IMG/VR virus record: IMGVR_UViG_3300030450_002349
Span: 1 to 20,412 of that record
From: a virus
Direction: 5' to 3' (one strand)
Length of the DNA stretch: 20,412 bases
The notes beneath the pieces were generated by a model. The model saw only the letters and a program-made list of their open reading frames with translations, was not told the DNA's origin and did not search any database. How positions within the stretch are numbered: position 1 is the first letter of the stretch; each line of letters starts with the position of its first letter. The position numbers were made by a program, and so were the translations under genes. Of this stretch, positions 5,377-13,967 are shown in pieces.

Positions 5377-6609
5377 ATGAGTACATCAGGCACTAATATT
5401 ACCAGTATTGCAAAACCAGGTATAGGTACAACAGCAGGTCCACAATGGGCAACAGATATAAATGCTTCCTTGGATGCAGTAGATGGACACGATCACAGCA
5501 CTAACAAGGGTGTTCGCATTACACCTGCTGGAGTTAATATAAATTCTGACCTTGAGTTTAACCAAAATAGTGCCAGTGAATTAAAGAACGTGATTTTTGA
5601 TAGTTCTGTTACAGCTGCAACAACATCATATTCTATGTACCAGGCAAGCGGGAATTTATACTGGCGCAATGGTTCTGGAACTGCAGTACAGATCACGACT
5701 GGATCTAGCGTTAATGCAGGTGCAGGATCAATTTCTGGTATGTCAGGCACAGATGCAGGTGTAACATACGCAGACAGCTCAAAAACTTTCAACTTCTTTA
5801 CGGATTCAGCAAATGAAGATTATGGAAAAATGGCACACGCAGATTTGCTGCTGTTTAAATATACCAATGATAATACTGGTGATACGGATTATGTAACAAT
5901 TGCTGCAAATGCAGGTGTGTCTGGATCTTCTGGAACCATATACGTTCCTTCAGAAAACGGCACGTTTCTGACTACTGCAACCAATTATGCAGGTGCAATT
6001 AATATTGCCACAAGCAATTCAAATAATAACATTGCACTAAAGCCACACGGTACAGGATTTGTCCTTGTAGGTAATGGAGGTGCAACCGGCAAAGTTACTT
6101 CCAACGGTGCGTATGATTTGATCCTGGACACCAACAGTGGAACCAACAGCTCATATATCACCATTACAGATGCAGCCAATGGTAACATTTCCCTGGTCAA
6201 TAATGGTACTGGTGAAGTAGTTATAGGTAGCGGATCAGCTGCAGGCAAACTCACAACTTCAGGTGCGCATGATCTGGTACTGGACACAAATGCAGGAACC
6301 GATAGTTCAAGTATCAAAATTGTTGATGCTGCTAATGGGGATATTGAACTTACACCAAATGGAACTGGTAATGTAAAAATCGACAATATATCAATTTCAG
6401 ATAATGCAATTATTTCTTCCAACTCAAATGGCAACATTGCACTTACTCCAAATGGTACTGGTGATGTTGATTTAGGAAATGGCACTGGTAATATTAATTG
6501 TAGTTCTTCATTTGCAACAGATATAAAAACAACTAACACTAAAAAAGTTTATTCAAAAGGAAACTGTGCGCAGACTAATCTGGTTGCCAGTTTAATTCAT
6601 GGTTTTTAA
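5377..6609 (+). CDS. Tail fibre protein with repeated beta modules
   Basis: The 410-aa product is a likely receptor-binding tail fibre. Residues 1-65 contain a phage fibre N-terminal pattern (GPQWATDINASLDAVDGHDHS, then VRITPAGVNINSDLEF), expected to attach to the tail. Residues 66-200 are Ser/Thr/Asn/Gly-rich. Residues 217-370 carry repeats of the form NGxIxLxPNGTGxV at about 217, 268, 320 and 351. A longer duplication of about 50 residues (235-285 and 287-336) has a GxxAYDLxLDTNxGT core. The C-terminus after residue 361 is nearly identical to the end of the next ORF. No cysteine-rich or S74 chaperone end is present. The ribosome site is weak (AGGT). Confidence 0.8.
   Translation: MSTSGTNITSIAKPGIGTTAGPQWATDINASLDAVDGHDHSTNKGVRITPAGVNINSDLEFNQNSASELKNVIFDSSVTAATTSYSMYQASGNLYWRNGSGTAVQITTGSSVNAGAGSISGMSGTDAGVTYADSSKTFNFFTDSANEDYGKMAHADLLLFKYTNDNTGDTDYVTIAANAGVSGSSGTIYVPSENGTFLTTATNYAGAINIATSNSNNNIALKPHGTGFVLVGNGGATGKVTSNGAYDLILDTNSGTNSSYITITDAANGNISLVNNGTGEVVIGSGSAAGKLTTSGAHDLVLDTNAGTDSSSIKIVDAANGDIELTPNGTGNVKIDNISISDNAIISSNSNGNIALTPNGTGDVDLGNGTGNINCSSSFATDIKTTNTKKVYSKGNCAQTNLVASLIHGF
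6453..6568 (+). repeat. Fibre-tip direct repeat, copy 1
   Basis: A 116-base stretch inside the fibre C-terminus recurs 249 bases downstream at 6702-6817 with a single difference (A at 6523, G at 6772). Beyond base 6568 the two copies remain collinear to their stop codons but differ at many bases. The unit therefore covers the conserved stem of the tip, and the divergence sits at the extreme C-terminus. Confidence 0.95.
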
Positions 6610-6858
6610 ATGACTCAGACAGTAGTTAGAGGATATACCGAAAATTCAGGTTCAATTACAATACAAGATGATTTGAATGGTGATATTACAATTGTTCCAA
6701 GTGGTACTGGTGATGTTGATTTAGGAAATGGCACTGGTAATATTAATTGTAGTTCTTCATTTGCAACAGATGTAAAAACAACTAACACTAAAAAAGTTTA
6801 TTCAAAAGGAAACTGTGTGCAAACTGGTTTTCATTCGTCATTAATCTTTAGTTTTTAG
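6610..6858 (+). CDS. Stop-separated extra C-terminal fibre module (82 aa)
   Basis: This ORF begins with ATG directly after the TAA of the fibre gene, in the same frame, and has no purine-rich ribosome site of its own. Its length including stop (249 bases) equals the spacing to a near copy of the fibre C-terminus. Residues 23-69 match the fibre end almost exactly (PSGTGDVDLGNGTGNINCSS and following), whereas the first 22 and last 14 residues differ. It may be made by termination-reinitiation, or as a read-through extension giving a 493-residue fibre. It could also be a relic or silent alternative tip. Its own reading frame is intact, which argues against long decay. Confidence 0.55.
   Translation: MTQTVVRGYTENSGSITIQDDLNGDITIVPSGTGDVDLGNGTGNINCSSSFATDVKTTNTKKVYSKGNCVQTGFHSSLIFSF
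6702..6817 (+). repeat. Fibre-tip direct repeat, copy 2
   Basis: This is the second copy of the 116-base fibre repeat, lying inside the 82-aa ORF. The offset of 249 bases is a whole number of codons, so both copies are translated in the same frame. Such a repeat could support homologous recombination that deletes one module and swaps the C-terminal 14 residues of the fibre. Confidence 0.95.
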
Positions 6859-7240: not shown

Positions 7241-7696
7241 ATGAGTGGAATTGTTGGTAGTATTCCAGTTTCTAGTACAAGACAACATACAGTTTTTGCT
7301 TCTGGCACAAAAATGCTTTTTAACCAGACAGCAGCACCTACTGGATGGACTAAGGTTACTGGATCAGGTAATGATACTGCTTTAAGAGTAACTACTGGCA
7401 CAGTTGGAACAGGTGGATCAGTAGCATTTGAAACTGCATTTGCATCGCAGGATATTGCGGATCATACGCTAACTCTAGCTGAAACTCCGGCACATGGACA
7501 TTCATTCTACTTATATACTGTGGCTGGTTCAGGTGGTTCTACTGGAAATAGAGTTACAAATGCTGGTTCTGGTTACTATTCTAACAATTCGTCATTTGGT
7601 TCGATTAATAATGCGGGGGGTGGTTCAGCTCATAATCACGGGGCGATCAATTTAGATGTTTCTTATGTAGATGTAATTATAGCAACAAAGGATTAA
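7241..7696 (+). CDS. Tail collar / fibre-tip-like protein
   Basis: The 151-aa product has the layout of a phage tail collar or fibre-tip domain. There is an N-terminal FNQTAAPTGWTKVTGSGNDT segment followed by ALRVTTGTVGTGGS and ETPAHGHSF. A variable Gly/Ser/Asn-rich loop covers about residues 98-128, and a histidine repeat (SAHNHG) precedes a beta-strand finish. The two HxH motifs (HGH and HNH) are typical of metal-coordinating trimeric fibre tips. The variable Gly/Ser region between them is where receptor contacts usually lie. The ribosome site is GAAGAGG upstream of ATG 7241. It is probably an adhesin at the fibre tip or a separate short spike. Confidence 0.75.
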   Translation: MSGIVGSIPVSSTRQHTVFASGTKMLFNQTAAPTGWTKVTGSGNDTALRVTTGTVGTGGSVAFETAFASQDIADHTLTLAETPAHGHSFYLYTVAGSGGSTGNRVTNAGSGYYSNNSSFGSINNAGGGSAHNHGAINLDVSYVDVIIATKD

Positions 7697-11382: not shown

Positions 11383-13967
11383 TGATGAACCAAGGAATGA
11401 AACCACAAATGCAGCCACAAATGGGTGGAGGTGGAACAGATTTGAGTGAAGAAGAACTCAAAAAACTTGCCATGCTCTTGCAGCAGATGCCTGCCAATGA
11501 AGGTATTATGACAGGCACCCCCACTGAAATGGGTGCTGTTGAAGAAGAGATTGGTCCTGGTAATCCGCTGCCTGGCACACAAGGTTTAGGTCCAGCTGGA
11601 GGTATGGTAAAAAGTTATGCAAAAGGCAAGGGTGAGGAAGATGGAAGAATAGACTCAGATCACCGCGTAGTTGTAGCAACAGATGCAGAAGTTGCTGCAC
11701 TAAATTACCTCAAACACCAGGACAAGGCACAAGGATTTTCCAGTGGTAATGGTCCAATAATTCAAGCCCTGGCACAGATGAATACTGATGACCTGGATTA
11801 CATTAATTACAGAGGTGAGGAAATTCCTACTCTGAATGATTCAGATGATGGCACCTCTGGTTCGGGGTGGTCTGATAAAGGTGAATCGGTAGGTTCAAGT
11901 TCAGGCGCAAGTTATACAGGTGGTGGTGATTCTTCCAGCTCATCTTCAAGTAGTTCTTCAGGTAATCGTTCAAGTAGTTCAAAATTGGCAAGGTTGGCAG
12001 CTGCAAAGAGAGAATCTAGATACCAATCAATGTCAGACGCACATTATGGGCCACCAGGAGAAGGTGGAACAGGGGATGAGTACGGTAGAAAATATTATGG
12101 ACCTCCATCAAGTGGAGACACATTACACAAACGATCTGATGAAACAGCTGCAGAATATCATGCACGGATGGGTGGAAATGTAGGAGATCGTGGTGGTTCA
12201 GGAGGTTCAGGAGGTTATCAACCACCACCACCACCAAAGTTTAAGGATATGAATGGTACAGAGTGGAATACCCAGGCAGAAGCAGATGCGTCAAATGAAA
12301 AGATTAAAGCAGCAATGTCAGGTATCGAAGGACAAACACTTACCAGTGATTCAACTTATGAAAGGTGGCTTGCCAGGAACAAAGACAAAGAAGAATATGC
12401 AGGATTAACTGATGAGCAGAAAGAAAAAGCATATAACACTGCACTGACCAAATCCCAAGAAGATGCGTCTAGCCAGGTGCCGAAAATGGTTGAAAGCATG
12501 AACAGCTATTTCAAAGGTGCAGATGTTGACGAAAATGCAACGTATGAGGAATTTGCAGCTAAACTTGGTGATAGTATGCCTGCAAACTTATCTGAAGCAA
12601 CAATGCGGGATATGTACGAAAATGCCCGCAAAAAGTTCCAACGCGGTGAAGCATTTACACTGACTCCAGAAGAGGTTGCAGAGTTTGAACGTGAAGCAAT
12701 CCAAACTGCAACAGTAGATGATGCAGAAAAGGTTGAATTAGGTGAAGTGGCAGACGCAGAGTCTACAACTGTTGGTGAGGTAGAAGATGTTACGCCTGAA
12801 CAAATTGAAGCAATTAAAGACGTTACAGATGAAGAAGTAGACAATATATTCTCAGGTGGAATAGACAAAGCAGAGCAGATGCTTTTAGCCAGGATTAACG
12901 GCACTGCCACTTCACCTGCAGAGCAGCAGTTAAAGCGTAGTAGTGAGCAGAACTTACGGATGATGCTTGGCGCAACTACTGGAGGTGACGCAGATCCAGC
13001 GAAGGTGCGTCAACTACGGAACGTATGGCAGGATATGACTCAATTTGCTGTTGGAGAAGCAGCAGATTTGCGTTCTAAAGAATCCCTTGCAGCAGAGCAG
13101 CAGCTAATAGAAGTGTACAAGTTTAAAGACACTAAAAAGCTGGACACCAAACTGGCTAATATGGAGAAGGATAAACAAGCTGCATTTAAGCAGGGTGATT
13201 TAAACCTGGCAGCTAAACTGGCAAATCAGCAAAGCAAACTCCAGAGAGTAATTGTCGGAGCAAATATTGAAAAAGACACCAAACTTGCGAATCTGGAAAA
13301 AGCAAAAACTATGGCAGTGGAGCAGGGCAAAACTGACCTGGCAACTAATATTGCAAACCTGCAGAAAAACCTCACCATTGCAAAAGTGGATGCAGATTTA
13401 GCAGTTAAGCAGCGTTCAATGGATGATGCACTTGCAATGAATGCGTACAAAGGACAGCAGGCACTGCATGGCATTGAAGCAGAACTTGACACTGAAAGTA
13501 TGAAAGCAGATTTAACCACAATGGGATTTGATCTGCAGCGTGACCTGGCAGAGCTGGATAGTGCAACTCAGATTAAGGTTGCAGAAATGACTAAACAGTG
13601 GAGACAAGCACAAGGTGATGATGCGAAACAGGCAGCAATTATTGGTGCAATTGGAACTATAATTTCAGGGTTTGCTTCTTCAGACATACGCGCAAAAACA
13701 AACATTGCACCAGGCGCAGGTGAAGTTGAGTCATTCCTGGATGCACTGAACAGTTACAAATACGAATACAAAGATCCATCCGGTTCTGATGAAGCTGGAA
13801 TGTTTGTTGGAGTAATGGCGCAGGACTTAGAAAAAACACCTATGGGAGCATCTTTTGTGAAAGACACCCCACGCGGAAAGATGGTGGATTATGGTCACGG
13901 ACTAGCAGCAATCCTGGCAAGCCAGGCAAATATTCACGATAGACTAAGACATTTGGAGGAATTTTAA
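11379..13967 (+). CDS. Putative ejection (internal virion) protein with C-terminal peptidase S74-type domain
   Basis: The 862-aa product has several parts: a Met/Gln-rich start, a Ser-rich linker (about 180-205), a Gly/Pro linker near 265-285, and a helical region including long coiled coils (about 570-748) with repeated KLANLEK-type units. A short hydrophobic glycine segment (about 751-767) precedes a C-terminal 95-residue domain. That domain begins SDIRAKTNIAPG and continues with SYKYEYKD, GVMAQDLEK and a final helix. These match the intramolecular chaperone (S74) family. Ser768 and Lys773 have the S/K spacing of five known for the self-cleaving dyad. The coiled-coil body and the neighbouring LysM and glycine-rich proteins suggest an ejection protein rather than a fibre. 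Confidence 0.7.
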   Translation: MMMNQGMKPQMQPQMGGGGTDLSEEELKKLAMLLQQMPANEGIMTGTPTEMGAVEEEIGPGNPLPGTQGLGPAGGMVKSYAKGKGEEDGRIDSDHRVVVATDAEVAALNYLKHQDKAQGFSSGNGPIIQALAQMNTDDLDYINYRGEEIPTLNDSDDGTSGSGWSDKGESVGSSSGASYTGGGDSSSSSSSSSSGNRSSSSKLARLAAAKRESRYQSMSDAHYGPPGEGGTGDEYGRKYYGPPSSGDTLHKRSDETAAEYHARMGGNVGDRGGSGGSGGYQPPPPPKFKDMNGTEWNTQAEADASNEKIKAAMSGIEGQTLTSDSTYERWLARNKDKEEYAGLTDEQKEKAYNTALTKSQEDASSQVPKMVESMNSYFKGADVDENATYEEFAAKLGDSMPANLSEATMRDMYENARKKFQRGEAFTLTPEEVAEFEREAIQTATVDDAEKVELGEVADAESTTVGEVEDVTPEQIEAIKDVTDEEVDNIFSGGIDKAEQMLLARINGTATSPAEQQLKRSSEQNLRMMLGATTGGDADPAKVRQLRNVWQDMTQFAVGEAADLRSKESLAAEQQLIEVYKFKDTKKLDTKLANMEKDKQAAFKQGDLNLAAKLANQQSKLQRVIVGANIEKDTKLANLEKAKTMAVEQGKTDLATNIANLQKNLTIAKVDADLAVKQRSMDDALAMNAYKGQQALHGIEAELDTESMKADLTTMGFDLQRDLAELDSATQIKVAEMTKQWRQAQGDDAKQAAIIGAIGTIISGFASSDIRAKTNIAPGAGEVESFLDALNSYKYEYKDPSGSDEAGMFVGVMAQDLEKTPMGASFVKDTPRGKMVDYGHGLAAILASQANIHDRLRHLEEF

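Follow-up and report, generated by a model that had tools for sequence, protein, structure and literature searches.

A full-length S74 domain behind a hydrophobic segment on a putative ejection protein of a virus contig

The S74 domain is known chiefly as a chaperone of fibres and spikes. The pairing of this domain with an ejection protein is already on record in other phages. In phage H6/1, gp17 bears the annotation 'putative ejection protein, pfam13884', and two further proteins labelled as putative ejection proteins come after it. Gp20 of Salmonella phage 7-11 is annotated as 'DNA ejection protein', and its S74-type end scores 20.5 bits, just below the curated PF13884 cut-off of 22 bits. 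Proteins of similar place and build stand under other names in RHph_N2, PAE2, AH02 and Octadecabacter DB2. In the literature searched, that is, titles, abstract openings, passages and few subscription papers, we found no discussion of the pairing.

Self-cleavage has been described for several S74 proteins. According to PMC8326128, R897 of endosialidase takes part in the cut and lies 14 residues before its Ser911. The same source reports that MyRF has to be a trimer to be cut, that the cut falls between P586 and S587, that a C-terminal coiled coil drives its trimerisation and that no stalk residue takes part, as a lysine elsewhere in the domain seems to replace R897. Since MyRF cuts without a stalk residue, the upstream arginine is not essential to every S74 domain. 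For Bdellovibrio Bd3182, self-cleavage is reported at S782 and no cleavage for the S782A form. As to ejection proteins, T7 gp14-like proteins are described as having four or five predicted hydrophobic segments (PMC8954989), and gp20-24 of SU10 are reported to be components of virions that genome-release particles lack (PMC9509320).

The stretch analysed here, the window, is a whole virus record of 20,412 bases, which is possibly a fragment; the virus is known from contig sequence alone. Its genes suggest the structural part of the genome of a short-tailed phage. The order is an SU10-type portal gene (PF23899), a scaffold-like gene (1384-2286, named by its position between the portal and capsid genes only), a major head protein gene (phrog_14242), an SU10-type adaptor gene (PF24175), a block of fibre-like and small genes, and then four large genes, P0002, P0001, P0003 and P0004. 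On the 3′ side of P0004 there are two small open reading frames, an M15 peptidase and then an integrase gene on the opposite strand. As this integrase gene (PF00589, 19656-20408, minus strand) is located at the contig end, the phage may be temperate. A scan of genome contigs for the host returned one distant match, an Aurantimicrobium MAG contig (L132).

P0001 (11379-13967, plus strand) encodes the 862-aa protein with the S74 domain. The preceding P0002 (8350-11382, plus strand, 1010 aa) is nozzle-like by position and size. We do not accept it as a confirmed nozzle, as neither hhalign comparison with SU10 gp17 (nozzle family) and four others nor a search of solved structures gave a match. P0003 (13969-15690, plus strand, 573 aa) has a LysM domain (PF01476, 1.7e-12) and is by its position probably the second ejection protein. 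P0004 (15690-18119, plus strand, 809 aa) matches weakly (8.5e-5) phrog_342, an internal virion protein with endolysin domain which is matched by two of six members of the P0004 family, and is probably the third. Tblastn searches of INPHARED with P0001, P0004 and P0002 gave no match. Between P0002 and the open reading frame after P0004 there are four junctions, of which three are overlaps and one has a single intergenic base; the start codon of P0001 overlaps the stop codon of the preceding gene (ATGA). These genes are therefore probably translated together.

The order around P0001 fits the scheme of three ejection genes in the part of PMC8954989 consulted, the identities of P0002, P0003 and P0004 being derived from gene position and from matches that are weak or partial. 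The gene order favours an ejection protein, that is, an internal virion protein, over a fibre. The first-pass annotation had placed the gene in the ejection-protein block. This agrees with its place after fibre-like genes and before two large genes for internal-protein-like products, but homology of the body to ejection families was not found. With hhalign, 17 sequences of the P0001 family gave nothing significant against five CRP-3-type bodies. Against five other bodies (7-11, two from SU10, L036 and H6/1) the probability was 0.1% with E 0.61. Membership of the body in the phrog_4287 family of 7-11 and SU10 is rejected on this result. A search of the window with phrog_4287 itself gave no match, and as the controls were equally silent it carries no information.

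Two further observations concern the genes upstream. A second copy of the C-terminal end (6427-6576) of the fibre-like gene (5377-6609) is located at 6676-6825 with 93% DNA identity; this copy falls in the next small open reading frame (6610-6858) and resembles a spare fibre tip. In a related contig (L001:4283-5610) three tandem reading frames resemble the single reading frame 7241-7696 of the window. This is a change of copy number in what may be a host-binding part.

The S74 domain was confirmed where the first-pass annotation had seen it, on the 862-aa protein at 13680-13964 (plus strand), exactly residues 768-862. PF13884 is the sole Pfam family found in P0001 (33.7 bits, E 4.7e-8, residues 768-819), and the alignable domain extends to the last residue; it is the one S74 match in the record. 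The predicted nucleophile Ser768 (13680-13682) and its predicted dyad partner Lys773 (13695-13697) are indeed kept at these places in the window and in all of the 16 relatives aligned with it (17 of 17); the relative L011 is cut by its contig end inside the domain. Asp769 is likewise invariant, and positions 770, 771 and 772 vary. The predicted scissile bond is located just before Ser768. No other region of P0001 is as well conserved: mean identity to the window is 83% compared with 23-66% elsewhere. No counterpart of the endosialidase R897 is found at the equivalent position, where residue 754 is an isoleucine. Because MyRF uses another basic residue, P0001 might nevertheless be cleaved.

Searched alone against solved structures, the P0001 sequence gave no S74 match. 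A profile of 50 S74 domains, 18 from the P0001 family and 32 chosen from contigs with a shorter form of the domain, matched the MyRF ICA domain (7dc3, 8.9e-9), a long tail fibre (6f45, 1e-5) and a neck appendage chaperone (3gud, 3.7e-5). The chain of 3gud starts at the residue equivalent to the S74 serine. The serine is present in all 50 domains, which is no census since the 32 were drawn from 56 distinct short tails and neither of the two cysteine-bearing tails was chosen. The AlphaFold model of the domain (mean pLDDT 52.1) has strands and, after them, a long helix at the C-terminus (residues 94-115 of the domain model). Fold searches with this model gave weak matches, 7dc3 by Foldseek (E 0.026) and 3gw6 (Z 3.4), and S74 structures top both lists. 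With mean pLDDT values of 53.6 and 52.1 for the full-length and domain models these searches are weak support. The predicted helix corresponds to residues 838-861 (13890-13961, plus strand), as suggested by the low-confidence models and the alignment, and is missing from the short-form tails.

Directly before the predicted cut is a hydrophobic segment (residues 752-766, 13632-13676, plus strand), as the first-pass annotation had noticed. Its 15-residue Kyte-Doolittle maximum is 1.99 within the 30 residues before the serine. By this measure the P0001 family ranges from 1.11 to 2.07 (18 of 18), ejection-type S74 copies of phage records from 0.98 to 1.64 (10 of 10) and fibre-type copies from 0.20 to 0.90 (6 of 6), so that fibre-type values overlap with neither of the others. 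We note, however, that the sets compared are small and hand-picked. Among the six fibre-type controls L135 is almost identical to L136, L135 and L138 are annotated as hypothetical and L134 as baseplate wedge initiator; L139 was left out of the analysis. Three of the ten ejection-type copies are annotated as ejection or internal proteins (7-11, H6/1, MW202675), and the others are labelled chaperone, structural or hypothetical or carry no annotation. The S74 reading frame of PVA1 (L041:6419-7249) is without annotation in its record; the name shown with this match belongs to the next gene. A hydrophobic, potentially membrane-inserting segment is expected of an ejection protein, and P0001 has one, against the four or five predicted in T7 gp14-like proteins.

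The body of P0001 is predicted to be helical. In the full-length AlphaFold model (mean pLDDT 53.6) residues 299-768 contain helices only, apart from loops and coil at about 437-473. Strands in the body are short (141-150 and 288-296), and no beta-helix is predicted in this model of low overall confidence. The pLDDT blocks are 74-87 for residues 281-420, 52-72 for 491-670, 37-49 for 671-700 and 58-78 for 701-760; the S74 part is mostly below 50. A helical domain is predicted at residues 299-422 (12273-12644, plus strand; blocks of 76-87, the last 63). It is preceded by a fast-changing low-complexity stretch at residues 91-285 with 23% identity at 47% coverage. The PHROGs gave no match to the body. 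Among six relatives of P0001, L032 had two sub-threshold matches (E 0.012 and 0.062) and the other five had none.

Residues 581-700 (13119-13478, plus strand) form a rod with 22-residue repeats, as judged from motif spacing and length steps. Its LAN-type motifs are mostly spaced by 22, 33, 44 and 55 residues. Self-identity of the rod is 0.29 at lag 44, which is clear, 0.19 at lag 22, which just reaches the threshold of 0.19 (95th percentile of the shuffled maximum), and 0.09 at lag 11, which is below it. The claim of an 11-residue unit therefore rests on length steps, five distinct lengths among related sequences. From the SPA to the MGF/AGF anchor, 14 of the 17 sequences have a distance of 203, 214, 225, 247 or 302 residues, all equal to 5 modulo 11; the remaining three, which are related, share 202 and thus depart from the rule by a single residue. 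We conclude from the 14 that the rod changes its length by whole 11-residue units. The coiled-coil body of the first-pass annotation was thus right in kind, as the body is predicted to be helical, but its repeat has 22 residues, with 11-residue length steps, and is not a heptad.

The first-pass annotation had regarded an S74 domain on an ejection protein as odd. This view is not supported: annotations of named phages show an arrangement of this kind, and similar domains are found at many viral-contig loci. A scan for one such domain gave 100 relatives in viral contigs, of which 80 loci were kept, with 56 distinct ends. Of these ends 54 have SD...K and two CD...K (L100 and L127). A regular expression found the motif in 44 ends and the other 12 were read by eye (10 SD...K, 2 CD...K); the scan patterns favour conserved motifs. 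In L100 and L127, where a cysteine stands for the catalytic serine and Asp and Lys are kept, the sequences would fit either a swap of the nucleophile or its loss. The short-form tails are 63-77 aa long counted from the serine, in the 44 of 56 measured, and the ejection-type copies of phage records 64-85 aa (9 of 10; the tenth is an internal S74 domain). The same length is 94-96 aa in the P0001 family (18 of 18) and 95-102 aa in fibre-type copies (6 of 6). The additional piece of the P0001 domain is the predicted C-terminal helix.

Taken together, the S74 end and its hydrophobic segment have matches in 14 PHROGs (E up to 5). First comes phrog_6121 'virion structural protein' (4.2e-8), and the third is phrog_4287 'DNA ejection protein' (4.4e-7), a match confined to the S74 end and the preceding segment; phrog_8003 is a head family and 11 of the 14 are tail families. 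In INPHARED, tblastn with the S74 region gave only two matches (E 1), both to fibre-type proteins of Klebsiella myophages. We also inspected the next large reading frame upstream of the S74 gene in six contigs of the scan. In L054 and L097 it belongs to SU10 nozzle families (phrog_3287 and phrog_14417), in L057 and L065 to an 'internal virion protein' family and in L113 to an amidase family; in L062 it belongs to no family. As judged from these large reading frames, an S74 protein after a nozzle has therefore a precedent. A separate case is L040:6179-9736 (MW202675.1), where by eye a reading frame of 1185 aa consists of a gp7-like part, an internal short-form S74 domain with SD at residue 277 and a transglycosylase-like part. 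If the domain cuts there, two ejection proteins would be split from one chain.

The distribution of the domain among homologues is also informative. SU10 gp21 and gp22 match phrog_4287 'DNA ejection protein' and have no S74 domain; read by eye, their ends are hydrophobic and rich in Gly and Ala. In 7-11 gp20, another member of this family, a stretch of this sort is closely followed by the S74-type end. Among the proteins of the CRP-3 type, those of CRP-3 and CRP-235 have the domain. Those of phiM6 and CRP-1 are without it and stop near the hydrophobic segment, and the homologue in HMO-2011 has a different tail. As S74-less homologues of these two other families end at or near the hydrophobic stretch, the domain looks like an optional cap. 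In the P0001 family itself no S74-less member was seen, and the relatives without the domain are cut by contig ends.

We suggest, as on balance the probable reading, that P0001 is the first of three ejection proteins and that its S74 domain is a trimerising, masking and self-removing cap. This proposal draws on the domain with its dyad and hydrophobic segment, on the 11-residue length steps of the rod, and on gene order as well as the pattern of presence and absence in two other families; from these we infer the location in the head, the trimer, the masking and the cleavage of P0001 with its timing. The body would be a long helical rod with a membrane-seeking hydrophobic segment as its end. 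The S74 domain would bring three chains together and keep their hydrophobic ends covered and in register through synthesis and head assembly. It would then cut the chain between residues 767 and 768, and the cut protein would end in the hydrophobic segment much like the S74-less members of the two other families. It is mainly because cutting before the serine would nearly restore the end of these S74-less relatives that we think the cut happens. A wider version is possible but doubtful. Here the self-removing trimer cap would nucleate a DNA conduit: hendecad rods, three or multiples of three, would be set in register, their tips covered in the head and the caps cut off, and the bare tips would enter the host membrane on ejection. 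The rod would be a ruler in 11-residue steps and the cap a module which is gained and lost.

Other readings have to be weighed against the self-removing cap. The domain on an ejection protein could be unable to cut and could serve as a fixed trimerisation and anchoring module that enters the host with the protein. The lack of an arginine at the R897 position speaks for this, and the high conservation of the domain (83% against 23-66%) also suits a lasting structural role. Yet neither Ser nor Lys changes in the alignment, unlike the drifting residues that separate Asp from Lys, and by the account of MyRF in PMC8326128, which uses no stalk residue, the upstream arginine is dispensable in some S74 domains. 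We consider a non-cutting domain unlikely.

We give still less weight to P0001 as an external trimeric part of the tail, a needle or central spike encoded after the nozzle gene, with the S74 domain as an ordinary fibre chaperone. In SU10 the nozzle gp17 is indeed followed by gp18, the needle, which is trimeric and contains a coiled coil; the P0001 domain is full-length like the fibre-type copies, and tail families prevail among its PHROG matches (11 of 14). On the other hand, the hydrophobic segment fits ejection-type and not fibre-type S74 copies, and L054 and L097 show an S74 protein following a nozzle-family reading frame. The two specific forms of this reading are rejected. For an SU10-type needle, P0001 lacks the PF09327 domain of gp18 and shows no similarity to it (best E 3.0). 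For an S74-tailed fibre or tailspike, in place of a beta-rich trimeric stalk helices are predicted for residues 299-768, and the hydropathy is outside the range of the six fibre-type copies. Finally, it is very improbable that P0001 is a scaffold-like or assembly protein which does not remain in the virion. The fast-changing low-complexity stretch (residues 91-285; 23% identity, 47% coverage) would agree with such a role, but P0001 is located after the tail genes and a separate scaffold-like gene, named by position only, is present at 1384-2286.

Compared with known systems, the nearest solved relative of the S74 profile is the ICA domain of MyRF (7dc3), which as described in PMC8326128 cuts without a stalk residue and in a membrane-associated protein. 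Unlike P0001, MyRF is a eukaryotic transcription factor with its membrane segment after the domain. The S74/IMC domains of fibres and spikes (3gw6, 3gud, 6f45) share with P0001 the full-length domain and the SD...K dyad, and 6f45 and 3gud also a sequence relation. In contrast, the stretch before the domain is more polar in the six fibre-type copies, and the triple beta-helix of tail fibres and spikes is not predicted in P0001. For the rod, the tube of the phiX174 DNA pilot protein H offers hendecad (11-residue) helices in a DNA-conducting protein (PMC7354561). This is an analogy only, and no homology is claimed.

Among phage proteins, Roseobacter phage CRP-3 gp24 and CRP-235 gp25 (HMO-2011 type) resemble P0001 in the long repetitive body, the hydrophobic segment and the S74 tail; they have S74-less homologues. 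They differ in that their domain is of the short form (73 and 71 aa) and they are annotated as hypothetical, and the profile comparison with P0001 was not significant. Gp17 of the Pseudoalteromonas virus H6/1 and 7-11 gp20 are like P0001 in that the gene follows the tail genes and the hydrophobic segment is directly before SD...K. Their bodies have no detectable relation to P0001, and their domains, with 70 and 85 aa from the serine, are without the C-terminal helix stretch. The position of S74 domains just after the hydrophobic ends of ejection-type proteins suggests a second job for this domain, the handling of membrane-seeking ends in assembly, and the idea of a cap offers a simple test of how such proteins could stay soluble and avoid early membrane insertion. 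New compared with all these systems is a variant, the full-length S74 domain on an ejection-type rod protein with 11-residue steps.
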